From Spiroplasma turonicum (GTDB taxonomy: Bacteria > Bacillota_I > Bacilli_A > Mycoplasmatales > Mycoplasmataceae): DNA of 64,000 nt. The stretch is from the NCBI RefSeq assembly GCF_001262715.1, contig NZ_CP012328.1, positions 806,001 to 870,000 of the forward strand, given 5' to 3'. Made by a program: the position numbers and the translations under genes. Positions 42,776-60,680 of this stretch are shown in pieces. The notes beneath the pieces were generated by a model, which saw only the letters and a program-made list of their open reading frames with translations, ran no database searches and was not told the origin of the DNA. Every line of letters starts with the position of its first letter. The first letter of the stretch is position 1.

Positions 42776-44640
42776 GATTCATTTAAATATTAATGTATTA
42801 AGTAAGACTAATATTGATGAAAAAAACATTATAAACATTCCTATTATTGGAGTTAATAAACCAGTAATTGACAATGGTATAACAACAATGTTATAAATAA
42901 ATGCTCAAAATAAGTTAGTGTAAATTAGTTTTTTTTGTATATTTTGCAAGCTTTATTGATTCTGATATTAGATTTATATCAGGATTTAAAGGATTAATGT
43001 CTGACTCTAAATTTAAAAATGCTTTTTTAGATATAACCGAAATAGACAAATCGGCTTTTTTGAATTGCAAGTATGTCGTTAATTCCATCACCAACATATA
43101 ATACTTTTTTACTATTAGTTTGATTTTTTTTTAATTATATCAAGCTTTTCATTTATACTTTTTTGAGCATATACTTTATCTATATTCAATTAATTAGCAA
43201 CAGTATGAGCCACTTTTATATTATCAACAGTAATCATAACAACTTCCAAGCCCATTTTTTTGTTTTAATTGAATTATATGAACTATTTCTAAATTGATCT
43301 TCAAACTCTATCATTGCAACAATAATATTATTTTCAATAATTAAAGATGTAGTATTTTCTATTTTATTAAAATCAATATTTATATTAGATTTTAAAGTTT
43401 AAATTATAATCAGATATTGGTAAAATTTTATATTCATTTTTATTAATAAAAATGTCTGATTATCTATTTTTTCAACTAATATATCATTATTTAATTTAAT
43501 ATTGCTTGTTCAAAGATAGTTAATTACACCAGTATCTATAAGGTGTATTAGTTGTTTTTCAATTAATACTATGATTTCGAGAAACTTTATATTTCGTGTA
43601 AATTTTTTAACTTTTATTTCACCATCTGTTAATGTTCCAATTTTATCAAATGCAACTACATATACTGAAGAGAACTTTTGGAATGATTCTGTCTATTAAA
43701 AGTAATACCTTTTTTAGCAGCTTTTGTTGAGCCAATCATAATTGCAATGGTATTGCTATTCCTAAAGAACATGGGCCATGCAGAAACTAATATAGTAACT
43801 AATATTTTTAATGAAACATAAAGATTATGTTTATTAATTAAAAAATAAGATATTAAAAATCCAAATAAAGATAAAAATACAATTAATGGGGTAAAATAAA
43901 TTTTAATTTTATCAATTATAGTTTGAAGTTGAGAATTCTAAGATTGAATTGTCAAAATTTTTGTAATAACTTTATTAATAAAAGAATCAGTATTTTTGTT
44001 TTTAACTAATAAAAGTAAGCTATCTGATTTGCATTTCATTCCTGAAAATATAAAATCATTTTTAAAAAATGTTTTAGAAATATTTTCTCCATCAATAATT
44101 TGAGTATTAACATTTGCTTTATAATTTAATAAAATTCCATCCAATGGTATTATTTCATTAGATTTTATTTTAATAACATTATTAACATTAACGATATTTA
44201 TATTTACATAATCTTCAAGATTATTCGAAATTTTTATTACTCTTGTTGGTATTAATGATGTTATTCTTTTTAAATCTTTAGAAACAAAACCTTTTATTTT
44301 ATTAGTTATATAATCTCCAGATTTGACAAATAAAATTACAAAAATTCCAAAGTCTACTAAGTCTGGATATAAATTATTTGCCAATTGATAAACTGATAAA
44401 TATTATAGATGTTTGCGTTGATAAAAATATTAGTTTATCATACCTATATTTTTTTAAACAAATATTTCGTAATAAGTCTTTTTAATAAAATTAAAACCAT
44501 GATACCTACAACTCAAAAAAATAATAAAAAATAAATGGATGCTTTTTTAACTTTCAATTATATACCTTCAAAACCTAATTTTAATTTGTAAATTTTTGTC
44601 AAAAGAATTTAATGTTGCATCAACATCAGTTACAATAAAC
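42776..44640 (-). pseudogene. Ruined heavy-metal P-type ATPase (P1B)
   Basis: Successive frames carry, in order, pieces of a CopA-like ATPase. They are a region with the actuator motif degraded to DGENISK, the membrane motif as SAWPCSLGIAIP (normally CPC), the phosphorylation site as FDKIGTLTDG (normally DKTGT), the hinge YVGDGINDILAIQ, and the last helices (YNIVVIPLSITGLLTPIIG). Several frameshifts and stops break the frame. Both the metal-binding cysteine and the threonine of DKTGT are changed, so loss is old and complete. No metal-binding domain was found at the N-terminus. Confidence 0.87.
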
Positions 44641-44886: not shown

Positions 44887-46725
44887 AAATTGTTTTTTTC
44901 ATATATTATTAATTCGTTTCAAAACTATAAATGCAATGGTGATTAATATTTTTTAATTAAAATCTATTTTGTTGAATTTTTTAATTGTTGAAAGAAATAG
45001 TAGCTTGCTTATAAGAAATAAAGTAATAAATAAATAAGATGGATCAATAAAATTATTAAAGGAGTTTTGATCAAATTTATTATTTATATTTTTTAAATCG
45101 AATATAATATATGGTAAAAATAAATTTTGTTGTTTATTTAATTCTATTAAAGAGGTACTGTTTGGATTAAATCATATGTCATCATAATATAAACCTGATT
45201 TATTAGTATAAAAAACTCAGGTCAAATAAAAAGGGTTTATAAAATTCATAATGTTCAATTTTTTTTTGATATCTAAATAACTTCTAAGAGTATCATTCTG
45301 AACCAATGAATAGTTTGTCGAATAATAATAATGAGTTGTATAATAAATTAAATAATTTTCAAGTATTCTTGTTAAAAACATTTCATCATTAATTATATTA
45401 TCATAAAAATAGTTTTTAAGTTCTTCTGAATATCTAATTGTAAAGTCTTTGTCATCAATAGGGTTCACCCCTGCAATTATAAAATTGAAAATAGATTTTA
45501 TATCATTTACATCTAAATCGATTTTTTCATTTTTACTTAAATTAATTATTTGATTGCTGTTAATATTGTTTGACAGAAATAAATAATCACCAAAAAGATT
45601 ATATTTTTGTTGAGGGATATTTATAATAGTTTTTTTTAAATCGCTTTTAAAGGATAAAAAGTCAGCAATATTACTTTTTATGCCTTCACTACTAGTACAA
45701 TTTAATAACTTTCTTATTTGGTGTTCATTTTTAAAATAGGAGTTTAGAGATAAATTAATTTTAATTTTATCACCTAATGATCATTTTTTTAGACTTGTTT
45801 TTTTAGAATTAGTTAATAATATTCCATCAAAACTTATTTCTTTTTTGGAAGGTACGACTATACCCATTTCATTTTTTCAAAATTCATTATATCTAATTAA
45901 ATTATTGTTGTTTAAATTATTAATTGTAAATATTATATTATCATTTCTACTGTAGTTAGTTAGATAATGGTTTAAGGAGTGAATAAGATTTTTATATTTT
46001 ATTTTTTTATTTATAATTAGACCTTCTAAAGCGATGGAATTATAAACATCTGTTTGATAAATATCATAAGATTCATTATTATTAAAATCTTTAAAAGTAA
46101 AAATTTTGTCTTTTTCGCTCTCTCAAATTAGTTTGGCTGGAATGTTGGCTACAAAGGAAAATGATAATAGTAGTGTAGAGATAACTAATGTTGGTTGATT
46201 ACCAATGAATAAAATAAGAAAAACTAAAAAATTAAATAGGCTTATTTCTAATATTATTGAAAATAACATAAAAACAAGTGTTTTTTTTATTACAAAATTA
46301 TTAGTAGTAAAGTCATTAGACAATATATAAACAATATTAAACATGATGTATGAAAAGAAAACTGGCGAAGTAATAATAATCAATAAAGTAAAATATTGTG
46401 TTATAAAGAATCTAATTCTTGAAAATGAATTTGCAATAACAACAAATATTGTTTTATCTTCAATTTTTCTAACAAAAAAGAAATTGATAATCTTAATAAT
46501 GAATATAAATAAAAATATATTTATAAAAATGATAACATAAAAATCAAAGAGTAAATTTTTTGTTTCACCAGATTTAATTAAAGAAAAAAGAACAGATACT
46601 AATAAAGAAAAAGAGTTTATTATTATAAAATAAATAACGAAAACTTTTTCATGAATAAGAATTCTATAAAAAAAATTGATTAAATCCTTAATTTTAATCT
46701 TGATTGTACTGGCCTCTTTTGACAT
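44875..46725 (-). CDS. Membrane protein with large polar C-terminal part
   Basis: A 616-residue protein, start at ATG 46725 behind TAGGAGGTGGTT. The first 200 residues hold five or six hydrophobic segments (for example KVFVIYFIIINSFSLLVSVL), similar in layout to an ABC-2 type permease. The rest is polar with two weak hydrophobic stretches near the end (SYLFITLFLISKLLFL). I do not recognise it further. It is 36 bases downstream of the large lipoprotein at 46762, so the two form an operon and probably act together. Several TGA tryptophans are present. An exporter subunit is possible but not shown. Confidence 0.7.
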
Positions 46726-46761
46726 AACCACCTCCTATAAAGTAATGACTTAAGAATTAAA

Positions 46762-48747
46762 TTATTCACCTAATTCAATTAAACTTTGAAATCTTTTACC
46801 ATTTTTTGAATTAAACATTTCTTTAATTCTGAAAACTACATTAATAAAATCCAATTTGAATTCAACATCTGCAAAAGAATTTACAGGTATATAATAACCA
46901 TCAACAGTAATGCCTTTTGTATCTCTTTTTTCACTATCTAATTTTTTTACATCAACATCACCAATATTTTTAAGCAGCCTAACATAAGGTTTATATTTTT
47001 TACTAAACTTTCATTCAAAAATGTTTTGGTTTCCTTGTTTATTTATAATATGTTTAGCCTCTTTTTGTATTAAAGTAGTATTTGGATCTTGACTATCTGT
47101 TAATTCAAGTGATAAAAATTTATTAAATTTATCTAAAATATTAGTATAGACTATTTTTAATCAATTTTCATGTTTTTCATTACTTTCACCATTACCATCT
47201 GGATCAATATATTTTTCGTTTAAAGAGTCTCATATATTTAAGTTATTACCTGTGGAATCTTTAAATACTCCTTTAAATTTTATTAACTTATAATCATTAG
47301 AGGTTTCTTGCACACCAAAAGTTTCTTTAAATGTTTTGATACCTTTTAAAAGATTTTCTGTTGTACCATAAATCAGTTTTGTATTATTTTTATCTATTAA
47401 GTTATCATCTATTTGATATCCAACTGCCAATATGAAATTAGGAACATCAAATTTAAATTTACCATTATCAATTAAAATTTCTAAGTTTTTAATAGGGGCA
47501 TTTTTATATTTAACAGTTTTACTTAAAACTTTTATGAAATCTTCTTTATTGTATGTCTCGCTATCTTCATAATTAACTTTTTCAATATAGGTATCCAATC
47601 ATTTTGAATAGTTTTCTTTTATATAATCATATACAGATAAAATATACTTATCATTTTTAAATATATAATCATAAAGTTTTTCATTAGAATCAAGGTCATC
47701 ATTACCTATATTTTTAAAATCATTCTTCCAATTAAAATAATTTGGAGGTGAATTTTTTGAAGTATACTCATTATCTCAAGAATCTAAGTTATCTACAATT
47801 CCATCATTAACAGCATCATCTTTTATTTTAACTTCTAAACCATTGTTTATTGGAGGTTTTATGATTTCTTCTAATTTTTTATATAAATTGTTATCTTTTT
47901 TAAATAAATCTAAATATTTAGAATTAATTACATCTTTATCTTCAAATAAATCTCCAGTTTTTTTTGATGTTTTAATTATAGAATCTCTTTCTATAAAAAA
48001 CTTGTATTTAATATCTTTTAATTGATTATTTATATAATCTAATAATGCTTCATAAGTGGTAACTGTAAAATTAAATTTTCCAAATGTTGGTTCAATTTCT
48101 AATGTTGAATTATTTAATTTAGATTTATAAAATATTTGAAATTTTATTTCAAAGTTTTCAAGAACTGATATATATTTTATATCTTTATTAACTTTATCTG
48201 ATGGTTCATAGTATTTTAATATTGATTTTTTATCTTTTGATTCATAATAATTTTGATCAATAGATAATAGTTTATTTTTTTCTAAACCACCTACCAAAAT
48301 AGAGTACTTTGGATCTTTTGCAACTTTACTAACTTCATCAATAATTAAATTAAAGTTTATTTTTTGTTTTAAATCATAATAAAAATTTTCTTTAGCTTCT
48401 AAATTGTTTTTCAAGACTTCACTTATTGATTTTTCAATTGTTCTACCCACATTTTTATAATCTAAAATTTTTTTTAAATAATTATTATTAAAGAATTTAT
48501 TTTTTATAGTTCCACCTTGTTCAGTTCAATTAACAATACTTTTTTTTACTTCTATATTAATTAACTTTTTAATTTTTTCTAAATATTCTTGTTTAATCGT
48601 TTCATAAGAATCTCCTAAATCATTGTTAGGATTTTCTTCACAGTTCTCATCAGAGTTATCATTTACTTTTGTGTTACAACTTACAACATAACTGATCGGT
48701 GAAGATATTAAACCTGTGCTCATTATTGATAATAAATATTTTTTCAT
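46762..48747 (-). CDS. Large lipoprotein, paralogue of the 51787-53841 protein
   Basis: A 661-residue lipoprotein. The signal MKKYLLSIMSTGLISSP ends at the lipobox YVVSCNTK. The body is polar and Lys/Asn/Asp-rich. Near the C-terminus NIFEWKFSKKYKPYVRLL and FADVEFKLDFINVVFRIKEM match the equivalent FEWNFDFSN and LKLNFINIKFDID of the lipoprotein at 51787, so the two are paralogues. The start has a clear site (AGGAGTTTATTTTATG). The gene shares an operon with the membrane protein at 44875. Its promoter holds a long T homopolymer (see 48781-48808), which suggests on/off expression. Confidence 0.85.
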
Positions 48748-48780
48748 AAAATAAACTCCTATCTATTTAATAATGTGTTT

Positions 48781-48808
48781 ATCTTAACAAAAAAAAAAAA
48801 AAAAACAA
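48781..48808 (-). promoter_or_regulatory. Candidate phase-variable promoter with 17-T spacer tract
   Basis: On the minus strand TTGTTT (48803-48808) and TAAGAT (48781-48786) are -35 and -10 candidates separated by 16 bases. Fourteen of these 16 are T; the homopolymer runs over 48789-48805 (17 bases). The start codon of the lipoprotein is 34 bases past the -10. A homopolymer in the spacer changes promoter strength when it gains or loses a base, as is known for the vlp genes of Mycoplasma hyorhinis. Confidence 0.6.
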
Positions 48809-48917
48809 GAGGTTTCATAAAAAATCTAATAATAATTAATTAATAAAACTTGTTGTGAATGTTTATAAACTATTAGTTAAAAACTTTTCTATTTAATTAA
48901 TATATATTTAAACTACT

Positions 48918-48975
48918 AAAAAAGGAAACTATATAAACTAGAGGTTTTACACCGCTATTATTAGTTTCCTTTTTT
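48918..48975. terminator. Long-loop terminator hairpin
   Basis: AAAAAAGGAAACTA (48918-48931) and TAGTTTCCTTTTTT (48962-48975) form a 14-bp stem with a 30-base loop; T or A runs lie at both ends. It could stop transcripts from either side. It follows the GH32 pseudogene on the minus strand. Confidence 0.6.
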
Positions 48976-48998
48976 TTATGCTGAATATTTTATATAAA

Positions 48999-51100
48999 TT
49001 ATATGTTTTTTAAATCATATAAATCATAACTTATATTTGTACTATTTTTAATGTCAAAATTTAATAATTCAATATCATTATTTTCTAAAAACTTAAGTAA
49101 AGTAAATGTTGAACCATCAATCATTTTCATTTCAATTACAGTTTTATCAAGTAAAATTTCCATTTTTCCATTACTTAGGTCTTTTAGATTTGAATTATAT
49201 TCTCTTATATTTATAAATTCTTTTTTAATTGAAAGCGTTTTATAAATAGTTACTCTTTTTACTGAGATCTTGTTTAAATTAAAATCATAAATTATAATTA
49301 CATCATAAAGATTAGCATTAATTGTCAATTCAATTTTTCATCACTTGCATTGAAATTATTTAAATTTATTTCTAGTCTATAAATTCCTTCAACTTCAGTG
49401 AAAATATTAATAAAAAATTGAACTGACTTAGTTTTTTTACATTTTTAAAACCTAAAAAATCTGATTTTATTATATATTTTGAATTCTTCATACTAGTATT
49501 TTTTCTAAATTTACTTTACGAACCAACAGGAAAATTAAACATTGAAATAGTTGAACCATCAGGTAATATTGCTTCTATTGAAGTAGTGTCTACATACAAA
49601 GTTATTTTTGAAGTGTTTTAATTATTGATAATTGTCTTATAAGTTATTTTTTGTATAAGACCATTATTATCTTCTAAAGTTTTGTCTAAAGAAGATCTAT
49701 AAGAAGAAGTTGAATTATCATCAAAATTTAATTGTATTTTATTTGTATATGTTTCATTATTAAATATTAAATCAGTAATTCCTTTTTTATTATTCATATT
49801 TTTTAGTGTTAATTCTAATTTATATTTTCCACCTTTTAAAGTTCTGTCTTCAAATTAATTTTCATTACCATATGAAGTAATATCTTTATCATCATAATCA
49901 AAAAAACTTTTTTTAAATGAGTATTGATTGTTATCATTCTTAATAAGAGATATTTTCTTGCAAGTGACATATTACCCCAATAGCCTGCATTAGGGACAAC
50001 TCTGTTATAATCTAAACTACTCATTAAACCTATACCAATTAAATGATAACCTAAATTATCTTTGCTATCTTTAGTATCTTCAAAAAAGCTGGCTTCATAA
50101 AATCTACTCCAAAGTCAAGTCTTTTAGGTTCTTATTCTTAATAAAAATAAAATCTTTATTTAAATGACCAACATAATAATATATACCAGTACCAATATTA
50201 TCTACATATGATAGTTGACCATTATCATTACCATTACCACCATATATCACAACAAATTTTTTTCATCTTTATTTCCGTTTACATTTAATTCAGATACATT
50301 AGCAAATCCTACCATCGGATGTTTTGCTTCATAACTACCTTTATAATGATACTCACCTAATGGTTTATCTGACTCATAAACACCAAACTTATCAAGTTGT
50401 GAAACATACATAATAAATTTATTATCTTTTTAAAAAAAATGTGGGTCTCTGAAATCTGGATATATTACTTCTAGTTTATTATTTTTTAATATTGGTTCTG
50501 CACCATTTAATACAATGAAATTATAACAAAGTAGTTTCCCTTACCATCATTATCACCTGGTGATTAATAATAAGCTAAAACATTTTGACCTTTTGGCCCA
50601 ATATATGCAGTTGAAATTGCAACTCTTCCGTTTTTTGTTTTATTATCATTAAAATCGCTTTCTTTATTTATATATATAGTACCACCAGCTGCATCTACTC
50701 AGCTATTTGGGTTTCATTTTTTTACAGCTAAACCTTTATATTCTCAATTGATAAAGTTTTTTGTTAGCATATGATACCACTCAGTATTATTCTCACCTAT
50801 TTGATCACCATTTTCATTATATTTTGCACCTTTGTTATATAAAAAATATACATGTCAATATTTCCCGTCAAAAAAAGCACCTTGCATATCATTTAACACA
50901 TCTTTTGATTCTGGTGCATCAACATGAAATTTGTTTAAATACTTGGTCTCTTGATTTGGTTTTATGGTTTTTGAACCATCAATTAAAGTAGTATTTGTTT
51001 TTTTATAAAATATGATTTCATCATCTTTTTTTTATTATTAGCATTACAAGACAAAATAGATAAACACAAAGGTCCATTTAAACATTATACCCCTAATGCA
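48999..51100 (-). pseudogene. Ruined GH32 fructan/sucrose hydrolase lipoprotein
   Basis: Pieces in several frames assemble into a lipoprotein-anchored GH32 enzyme. In order they are a signal with lipobox LSILSCNA, the nucleophile block NDMQGAFFDGKYWHVYF (the usual NDPNG region), the RDP motif as YPDFRDPHFF, and a block with SLDYNRVVPNAGYWGNMSLA. Two beta-sandwich-like C-terminal modules follow (STSSYRSSLDKTLEDNNG and DKTVIEMKMIDGSTFT). Frameshifts and in-frame TAA codons (for example after GQNVLAYY) interrupt it many times. The intact gene would have cut fructans or sucrose outside the cell. Confidence 0.82.
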
Positions 51101-54018: not shown

Positions 54019-54840
54019 TTACAATAATAAATCTTTTCTTTTAAATATATAATATGATGAAACATAAAGCAACACAAAAATTATTAACAAAATAAATAAT
54101 CCTGATATAAAGCTTTTAACATCAGATAAAGCAGAAATATTTGTATTATAAAGGGAATTTAAACTGAAATATTTTAATCAACTTAATGATTGAATAGCCT
54201 GTGATAGAATGTTTGTTATTCAGAAGAATATACAAATACCTCCATTAACTAAAAATGTATAAATAATTTTATTAAATAAGCAACTGAATAAAAATATAAT
54301 TGATGATGTTGCTAATAATGCTAAATAAAATCCAATAAAGTGAATAGTAATTAAAACAAAATCCACTCCTTGTGATTGTTTTGAGATTAAAAATAATAAA
54401 ATTGTTAAAAAATAAATTAATATATTTGAAAAAGTTATACTACTAATAAAATCAAACATTTTAGTAAAAATTACAATTTTTCTAAATTGATTTGTGATTA
54501 ATATATTTACTAAATTACCCTTTTCAACCTCATTGCATACTAATAAAATTCCAACTACAATTGTAAAAATCAATAATAACATGTAAACAAGTCCACCAGG
54601 TCCAGTAATTAAATCAACGATTAAAGACTGAATTTTTGTATTAATACTCAAACTAGAATCATTAATAAGATCACTTTTAGAAAATAATGTATATGCAATA
54701 ACTGCACCAGATAATACTAATGAAGTAATTGTGATAACTAATAAAAATTTATAAAATTTTTTTTAAGTTAATTTAAATAACTCAATTGATTTTTTTGATT
54801 CTTTTTTAGAAATTTTTATATTTAAATGTTTTTCTAAATA
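54019..54840 (-). pseudogene. ABC-2 type permease with a nonsense mutation near the N-terminus
   Basis: The frame from about 54760 down to the TAA at 54019 encodes some 245 residues with six hydrophobic segments (LLVITITSLVLSGAVIAYTL, LVYMLLLIFTIVVGILLV and others) and the ABC-2 loop VEKGNLVNILITNQFRKIV. In the same frame, upstream of a TAA at about 54764, the sequence continues ELFKLT, which is the usual cytoplasmic start of such permeases. A single stop therefore separates the N-terminal codons from the rest. The neighbouring ATPase is also broken. An alternative start after the stop is possible but would lose part of the protein. Confidence 0.7.
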
Positions 54841-55790
54841 CTTTTTTTGAAGTTTTCATCTTTATAAAAGTTCATAAAGTACTCTTCTAAACTAAATGGT
54901 ATTTCTTTAAACCTTTTATATTAAATTTAAATAATAAGTTAAAAACTCATTTAATTGATTTGCTTTCACATCTAAAAGTAAACGATGATCATTAGTTTAT
55001 AAAATGTCAAACTTTTCAAAATCCTTTAGTTGAACATTCTCTAAAAATTTTAAGTCAAATTTTTTAGGAACTGTTAATTCAATTTGTTTAATATTTATTG
55101 GTGATACAATTTTTACTTGTTTAATTATTGATACATAATCACATATTTTTTCAACTTATGAAAAAAATGTGAGATGATAAGACAATTGCTTTTCCATTAT
55201 TTTTTTCTTTACAAGTTCAATAAATTTATTTTGCATCAAATGATCTAAACCAGAAGTTGGTTAATCTAATATAATTTTATCGGGATTATGCATTCATGCA
55301 ATTATCAAAGCAAGCTTCTATTTATTTCCTTTTGACAATTTTTTTATTTTAACTGTCGCATATAAGTCACAATATTTTATTAACTCTATAACATAATTTC
55401 TATTGTTCAAATTTCTTAAAGAATAAATTTGTCTAATAAGTTCAATACCTGTTATATTTAATGGAAAAGATATTTCTCCTGGAACATAACAAACTTTTCT
55501 ATTGATTTTATTTGCATCTTTTCAAGAATCATTTCAAATTATATTATTAACTTGATTCTCTGAATTTAAACTTACATCAATTGAACCACTGCTTGATTTT
55601 ATAAAACCATGAATAGTTCTTATTGTAGTTGATTTTCCATCACCATTTGGACCAAGATATCCAAAAAATTTTGCCATATTCAACATCAAAATCAATTTCA
55701 AATATTCCATAATTATTATTAAATTTTTTATTTACTTTTTTTACTTTATTTCCTATATTGTTAATGGAACCTCATCTTCAAAATTTTAAA
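54841..55790 (-). pseudogene. ABC transporter ATPase, broken
   Basis: Pieces in different frames show the order of an ABC ATPase. These are a start fragment FEIDFDVEYGKIF, Walker A LGPNGDGKSTTIRTI, CYVPGEISFPLN, the signature KKLSKGNK, Walker B KIILD with a stop where the Glu-Pro of DEP should be, SGLDHLMQNKF and an end fragment IPFSLEEYFMNFY. At least three frameshifts and several TAA or TAG codons interrupt it. It was the partner of the permease at 54019. Confidence 0.8.
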
Positions 55791-56591: not shown

Positions 56592-57890
56592 TTATAATTG
56601 TTTATTTTTAAAAAATGTATTAGAGTATCATTTTGCAAAACTTCATTTATAAAACATAATATATTGGTTATTAACACTTGGGACTTGTCCTTCATATGCA
56701 TCGTAATTTATAGCCCAAGTCATAAGACCTCTTATAATTATATTGTTATCTTTAAGTAGATTATAACATTTATTTAAAGCATTTTCATAAGCACCACCTC
56801 TTCCAGCAGGTTCATTTGTTGAAGCACCTAGAACAAATTTATTAGGTTTTATAATATAAAAATCATTTAATCTACTATATTTAGTAGTTAAATATTTTGT
56901 CATTAAATAATAAAATTCTGCTCTTTTATCAAAATCATCATTTGAAACAATTGAATGTAAACTTAATCCTAATTCTTCAGATTCACTTTGTTCAACATAA
57001 GGTCCAAATGCTCATCCATTATAAAATTGAGGTTGTATTCAATCATAATAATTCTCCAGTTGTTTAAAAAATGGAATATAACTACCTCCACTAGACTCCG
57101 TTGAATTTTTAAGATATGGAAGTTCAGGAGCCATTGTTATGTAAAAATGTTTGTTTTGTTTTTGTCAATCATTTTTAATATCTATCAATACTTCAGATGT
57201 AATTCTTTGACTAGTTCTGTCAGTTAAGCAACTACCTTCTCAATCAATATCCAGACCATCTAAATCATAATAATTTACAACATTTAAAATTGATTTTTTA
57301 AGGTCATTCTTATTATTTTCATTAAAACGCATTTCAGAGCCTGTTTGTCCACCCATAGAAATTAATACTTTTTTCCCTTTAGAATGAAGATAGTTTACTC
57401 CTTCTTTAACTTCTGAAGGATTATTAGGGTTGAATACAGGCATTTGGTTTGCACTACTAGCATATAAGAAAGATAAATTGATAACATCATATCTTAAATC
57501 AATATCCTTAAGTTTAACTGAGTTTTGATAAGAACCTCCTCAATCATATCAATAACCGACAAGTAAGTTCTTATAACTTCATTCGTTTTCTGGTGTTGTT
57601 GGGTTTTCTGGTGTTGTTGGGTTTTCTGGTGTTGTTGGGTTTTCTGGTGTTGTTGGGTTTTCTGGTGTTGTTGGGTTTTCTGGTGTTGTTGGGTTTTCTG
57701 GTGTTGTTGGGTTTTCTGGTGTTGTTGGGTTCTCTGGTGTTGTTGGGTTTTCTGGTGTTGTTGGGTTTTCTGGTGTTGTTGGGTTCTCATTTGGATTTTT
57801 ATTTATTGAACCAAAATCACATGAAATAACAAAGTTTAAAGAATAAGATACTAAACTAATTGCTAATATAATTGATAAAATTTTTTTCAT
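56592..57890 (-). CDS. GH18 chitinase-like lipoprotein with repeat linker
   Basis: A 432-residue surface lipoprotein. The ATG at 57890 follows AGAGGATATGTT. The signal MKKILSIILAISLVSYS ends in the lipobox NFVISCDF. A linker of eleven TTPENP-type repeats (about residues 35-101) leads into a GH18 barrel that begins LLVGYWYDWGGSYQN. The catalytic motif DGLDIDWE is at residues 211-218, with the acid E218. Other blocks are KKVLISMGGQTGSEMRF and RGLMTWAINYDAYEG. It probably cleaves chitin or related N-acetylglucosamine polymers outside the cell, in line with an arthropod host. All hallmark residues are present, so it looks functional. Confidence 0.92.
57589..57786. repeat. Eleven tandem 18-bp repeats in the GH18 gene
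   Basis: The unit TCTGGTGTTGTTGGGTTT (plus strand) recurs every 18 bases from 57589 to 57786. Only two units differ, by a T-to-C change near 57730 and one at the end. It encodes the Pro/Thr/Glu/Asn linker. In-frame gain or loss of units would change linker length without breaking the gene. Confidence 0.95.
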
Positions 57891-58062
57891 AACATATCCT
57901 CTTTTGATTAACATATATAACATAATTATTAAAAACAATAAAGTTTTACTTTTTATTATGAGTTTAATAAAATATATTAATATTATTTAAGATTTTAATC
58001 TAATTTTTATTAAAAGTATATTATATTATTTATAAAAGAAATAATAATATTTAGAGGTTAAT

Positions 58063-60640: not shown

Positions 60641-60680
60641 AAAAAAAAAAAAAAATGATAAAAATTAATTTATCATTTTT
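60641..60680 (-). terminator. Terminator after the oligopeptide-binding protein
   Basis: AAAAATGATAAA (60651-60662) and TTTATCATTTTT (60669-60680) form a 12-bp stem with a 6-base loop. On the minus strand a 15-base T run (60641-60655) extends it, making a strong terminator. Confidence 0.85.

Follow-up and report, generated by a model that had tools for sequence, protein, structure and literature searches.

A poly-T promoter spacer as a probable length switch of a lipoprotein operon in Spiroplasma turonicum, with apparent counterparts across the genus

The window analysed here is a 64,000-nt stretch of the genome of Spiroplasma turonicum, which is associated with insects (contig NZ_CP012328.1, positions 806,001 to 870,000 of the forward strand). 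Its minus strand carries a lipoprotein gene, with a start codon (ATG) at 48747, followed by a membrane-protein gene and preceded by a homopolymer of 17 thymines (T17) that is flanked by promoter-like boxes (Table 1). Read on the minus strand, this region has the sequence TTG-T17-GTTAAGAT, and the distance to the lipoprotein ATG is 41 nt.

Table 1. Features of the lipoprotein operon and its upstream region (positions within the window)
Feature	Position	Strand	Remarks
592-aa membrane protein, operon partner	44953..46731	-	starts 30 nt after the lipoprotein gene
661-aa lipoprotein (code 4)	46762..48747	-	signal peptide with Cys24
Shine-Dalgarno AGGAG	48756..48760	-	from sequence
-10-like box TAAGAT	48781..48786	-	TG before it (TGtTAAGAT) gives an extended -10
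Spacer, T14+GT	48802..48787	-	16 nt
T17 homopolymer	48789..48805	-	14 T inside the 16-nt spacer
-35-like box TTGTTT	48803..48808	-	TTG abuts the tract; last three T are part of the run
Inverted repeat GGAAACTA...TAGTTTCC with A/T tails	48918..48976	-	likely terminator of the upstream gene

The first-pass annotation had described the gene downstream of the tract as encoding a surface lipoprotein and the next gene as its membrane partner. Both descriptions held, as the lipoprotein signal has a cysteine that is invariant among 13 homologues, with surface exposure predicted, and a membrane-protein gene follows closely. The lipoprotein family is fast-evolving, with ~30% identity among sister species. 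A Pfam search matched the S. turonicum protein to no family, a sequence search of the PDB gave no significant relative, and comparison of its fold model, which is of moderate confidence (pLDDT 72, pTM 0.63), with the PDB likewise gave nothing significant. Against a collection of named genomes, from which near relatives had apparently been left out, the lipoprotein sequence found nothing and the promoter pattern gave 55 matches. The membrane partner has a sub-threshold match only in Pfam, and its homologues were detected in 18 of 20 species, often adjoining or near lipoprotein genes.

Inspection of the minus strand bore out the observation from which this work started, that 17 consecutive T on the coding strand nearly fill a 16-base promoter spacer. 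The segment reads ...AAACCTCTTG-TTTTTTTTTTTTTTTTT-GTTAAGATAAACACATTATTAAATAGATAGGAGTTTATTTTATG and in its wider context CCTCTTG-T17-GTTAAGATAAACAC...AGGAG...ATG, which places a homopolymer between the predicted -35 and -10 boxes of a lipoprotein promoter. These boxes match the consensus at 7 of 12 positions, below the threshold of a consensus scan, and the scan itself returned 49 promoter-like sites in 4.7 kb compared with 48.2 in shuffled sequences, which is chance level. It was dropped as evidence, being uninformative in AT-rich DNA and overlooking the T17 boxes. Given the weak boxes and a scan at chance level, the promoter reading needed an independent test, and it rests on a comparison with sister species. 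The TG preceding the -10 box indicates that the T17 promoter may depend little on the spacing of its -35.

T17 is the longest homopolymer in the single-contig genome of 1,261,374 bp. Within the window, A/T runs number 57 at 8 nt and five at 9 nt, with none at 10-14 nt, followed by one T15 and T17 itself, while the whole genome has only five A/T runs of at least 11 nt. This collapse of run counts beyond 9 nt, together with the five genome runs, indicates that the length of T17 is exceptional and not a matter of chance. Its layout, a promoter with a poly-T spacer, was seen at one of the five long tracts. The T15 (window 60641-60655, minus strand) follows an OppA-like lipoprotein gene, where it likely forms the tail of an intrinsic terminator, and lies ~90 nt before a membrane-protein gene. 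A T13 (L015 about 1501-1513, G000:C1:784131) is located between divergent genes for a MerR-type regulator and an aldo-keto reductase, the latter having a promoter with a MerR-like spacer. An A14 (L018 1376-1621, G000:C1:789980) lies in frame within an 81-aa ORF, possibly as a translational switch or in a decaying gene, and an A15 on the coding strand (L010 about 1501-1515, G000:C1:599567) precedes a TTGAAA-16-TATAAT promoter whose gene encodes a multi-membrane-span protein.

For the comparison we used stretches around long runs from five of 20 Spiroplasma species, which as a set contain 529 T/A runs of at least 14 nt, mostly 16-17 long, and set genes with T>=14 within 120 nt upstream against genes with only T6-10 there. 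TTG abutting the run (within 2 nt) was present in 31/56 long-T and 7/99 control upstream regions (p=4e-11), and TANNNT 0-3 nt past the tract in 33/56 and 20/99, respectively (p=2e-6), with no such -10 found in that interval for 23 of the 56 long tracts. The two motifs occurred jointly in 24/56 long-T regions compared with 2/99 controls (Fisher p=9e-11). Species G016 supplies 15 of these 24; with the richest species removed the counts were 7/31 and 0/58 (p=4e-4), and with similar proteins removed they were 22/54 and 1/92. When the offset was varied, enrichment was confined to 0-3 nt ahead of the tract for TTG and to 1-2 nt past it for TANNNT, and the spacers that the two motifs define in these five species were 14-19 nt long with a mode of 16. 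Lipoprotein genes made up 26/56 of the long-T genes and 33/282 of other genes (p=2e-8), and coding-strand A runs were found upstream of only 10 genes, compared with 56 for T. Other genes downstream of long T tracts, judged by eye from their N-termini, encode PTS components, RpiR-type regulators and C39-peptidase-type ABC transporters. In sister species, the poly-T spacer arrangement appears, from the upstream sequences, to be shared by dozens of genes for lipoproteins and sugar uptake. At two loci (L103 in G016, and L244) tandem T16/T17 tracts lie ~32 nt apart before single lipoprotein genes and are possibly double promoters.

The arrangement also recurs at homologous genes. Two homologues of the window lipoprotein in G013 have TTG-T17-GTTATAGT and TTG-T16-ATGTTAAAGT in the same place as in the window, and a pair in G018 has TTG-T18- and TTG-T20-GTTACTAT within near-identical flanking promoter sequence. 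As the coding regions of this G018 pair have diverged more than the promoter, and the tracts differ by 2 T, this points to a promoter that has been kept while its run varies. Several lipoprotein homologues, in S. turonicum and in other species, have no tract. The order tract, lipoprotein, membrane partner is found in the window and recurs twice each in G016 and G001 and once each in G002 and G019. Likewise, an RpiR-type regulator occurs in four species, each time with T16-17 upstream; the query here consisted of 60 residues read from sequence and 13 guessed, and the four orthologues match 71-90% over all 73, which leaves the outcome intact.

Run length itself has an unusual distribution. In 570 kb of sequence we counted 17 runs of 9 nt, one of 10, none of 11-13 and one of 14, followed by 8 of 15, 56 of 16, 49 of 17 and 11 of 18; these stretches had been picked for runs of at least 14 nt, which inflates the height of the peak and leaves the gap unaffected. 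In the unselected genus-wide count there were 538 runs of at least 11 nt compared with 529 of at least 14. The rest of the family has a similar gap (525 runs of at least 14 nt, 22 of 11-13), family f9 lacks it and shows normal decay (13 and 53, respectively), and some species centre at 18 nt or more, as in G007 (18/21 runs). In stretches L097-L176 and throughout genus g1, 11-13-nt A/T runs are almost absent, and those of 16-17 nt abound, whether in promoters, in terminator tails or at other sites. The length distribution of promoter tracts equals that of terminator tracts, with the 16-17 peak in both (p=0.42); the tract set includes TTG-selected sites and was hence used for comparing lengths alone. 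We rejected the peak as proof of promoter selection, because terminator tails share it, and for the same reason tract length probably stems from mutational equilibrium. A species-specific equilibrium that sets run length is probably the simplest reading.

In the absence of MutS, a 17-nt run should be unstable. A search for MutS (MutS_V match above cut-off) detected none in S. turonicum or in 157 related genomes (158 in total), while the same search, run on 14 reference genomes as a control, picked it up in 11. This absence in S. turonicum supports a switch without defining one, and it cannot fully explain why 11-13-nt runs are scarce, since MutS is also lacking in families that do not show the gap. 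A second S. turonicum subculture, resequenced by Illumina at about 288x, was reported to differ at 12 SNPs and by a single 1-bp indel, which lies in a homopolymer of unstated location (PMC5034139), which indicates that the consensus length of T17 changed by at most one base.

We consider it fairly likely, on the strength of sequence comparison, that T17 lies as spacer between the boxes of a sigma-70-type promoter and makes the lipoprotein operon phase-variable through its length. A promoter TTGTTT-16-TAAGAT with an extended -10 would drive the lipoprotein and membrane-protein genes together, and replication slippage left unrepaired would add one or a few T to the run or remove them, changing both the distance and the helical phase between -35 and -10. 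Provided that the predicted boxes are used and that length alters transcription, the cells of one clone would then differ from each other, some transcribing the operon strongly, others weakly and others not at all. T17, with a spacer of 16 as in a G013 homologue, would be an active length, and the mutational-equilibrium length of 16-17 would happen to coincide with the optimal promoter spacer. As for the phase variation that the first-pass annotation had proposed, its architectural part stands, since the arrangement recurs in sister species far above controls. Switching itself has indirect support, from near-identical paralogues that differ in tract length, from MutS not being found and from the typical contingency genes downstream. 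Overall, we regard a spacer-length switch like that of the vlp genes of Mycoplasma hyorhinis as probable and apparently genus-wide, with switching as the part that we infer.

Were T17 instead a constitutive structural spacer, rigid poly-T would set promoter strength and length drift would be incidental. We think this rather unlikely. The strong placement of tracts in promoters would suit it, as would a tract kept in promoter position for the RpiR regulator in four species, the two subcultures, between which no more than one homopolymer base differs across the genome, and an extended -10 that tolerates spacer changes; however, it fits poorly with the instability expected of a 17-nt run without MutS, with near-identical paralogues that differ by 2 T, with spacers that vary from 14 to 19 and with a lipoprotein enrichment of the kind expected for contingency genes. 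The near-absence of 11-13-nt runs across the genus and the equal lengths of terminator and promoter tracts would also be expected if slippage simply pushed A/T runs beyond about 10 nt to 16-17, with the products tolerated outside genes and one of them lying before a lipoprotein gene by chance. Such a neutral origin is improbable in our judgement, because the joint flanking by -35 and -10 goes beyond chance placement, and the bias of T over A on the coding strand, the lipoprotein excess and the recurrence at homologous genes would all be left unexplained.

Other tracts in the genus, and the T15 of the window, are terminator tails, so T17 might be taken for such a tail, with the upstream gene ending in an intrinsic terminator there. 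This reading was rejected as very improbable: there is no hairpin directly before T17 (score 5, compared with a null 98% threshold of 13), and the inverted repeat at 48918-48976 (Table 1) is already a likely terminator for the upstream gene, which argues that T17 is not its tail. Equally hard to credit is a sequencing or assembly artefact. The CP012328 (Tab4cT) assembly is from PacBio (PMC4653801), a platform prone to homopolymer errors, but the single 1-bp homopolymer difference genome-wide in the Illumina data (PMC5034139) largely refutes this, and similar tracts recur across many other genomes.

Length-variable promoter spacers have precedents. In the poly-C or poly-G spacer promoters of Neisseria opc and porA and Bordetella fim, slippage tunes transcription through the spacer length between the boxes, as proposed for T17, but these belong to unrelated bacteria and genes and have G/C runs that are usually shorter. 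Mrazek reportedly described in 2006 long A/T runs in Mycoplasma genomes that were not tied to promoters. Such runs are abundant in mollicutes regardless of location, whereas in Spiroplasma a clear subset of them occupies promoter spacers exactly, and the length distribution has its gap at 11-13. In M. hyorhinis the vlp tract is near 17 nt long. It consists of A and is located in the promoter region (Citti and Wise 1995, as described in PMC10502178), and both it and T17 are homopolymers in promoters of mollicute surface lipoprotein genes. The first-pass annotation had equated the two layouts, and the likeness holds in principle but not in detail: the S. turonicum coding strand has poly-T and not poly-A, the run abuts the TTG of the -35 box, and the profile searches gave no Vlp family match, the lipoprotein having no Pfam hit and only a sub-threshold, generic lipoprotein signal in NCBIfam. 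Furthermore, unlike vlp, the poly-T tracts of some sister species number in the dozens per genome and also precede PTS, regulator and transporter genes. The Vmm promoter of Mycoplasma mycoides has a dinucleotide repeat in its spacer (Persson 2002, also described in PMC10502178) and resembles the switch proposed for T17 in that a spacer repeat controls a surface protein, with mononucleotide T in place of the dinucleotide. For Bordetella, PMC10172299 mentions the deletion of a C from the fim3 promoter. The principle is therefore already known from vlp and Vmm, and the novelty lies in its apparent extent throughout the genus and in the gap in run lengths; our search of the open literature brought up no account of phase variation in Spiroplasma.

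More tentatively, and with somewhat less confidence than we would give an even proposition, the tracts may form a genome-wide contingency system, in which the set point drives A/T runs beyond about 10 nt to 16-17, the optimal spacer, and lipoprotein operons, PTS genes and regulators are switched independently. Under such a system the equality of set point and optimal spacer would let promoters easily acquire a self-restoring length switch, and each Spiroplasma clone would hold many surface and metabolic states. Phase variation in mollicutes has been studied mostly in vertebrate mycoplasmas, as antibody escape, and Spiroplasma species are mainly dwellers of insects and plants, hosts without antibodies. 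If the contingency system is real, bet-hedging of surface and sugar-uptake genes would serve other ends there, for example those concerning phage, host tissue or diet. The scarcity of 11-13-nt runs beside many of 16-17 nt is in addition a directly testable statement on slippage in cells that lack MutS.

Elsewhere in the window, a GH18 chitinase-like lipoprotein (56592-57938) contains an NPTTPE-type linker that is encoded by an 18-bp repeat of 11.2 copies with 98% match (57585-57785). The window also has apparent gene remnants, namely a piece of a P-type ATPase (43938-44384), a glycoside-hydrolase-like piece (50564-50899) and a broken ABC transporter (54019-55710).
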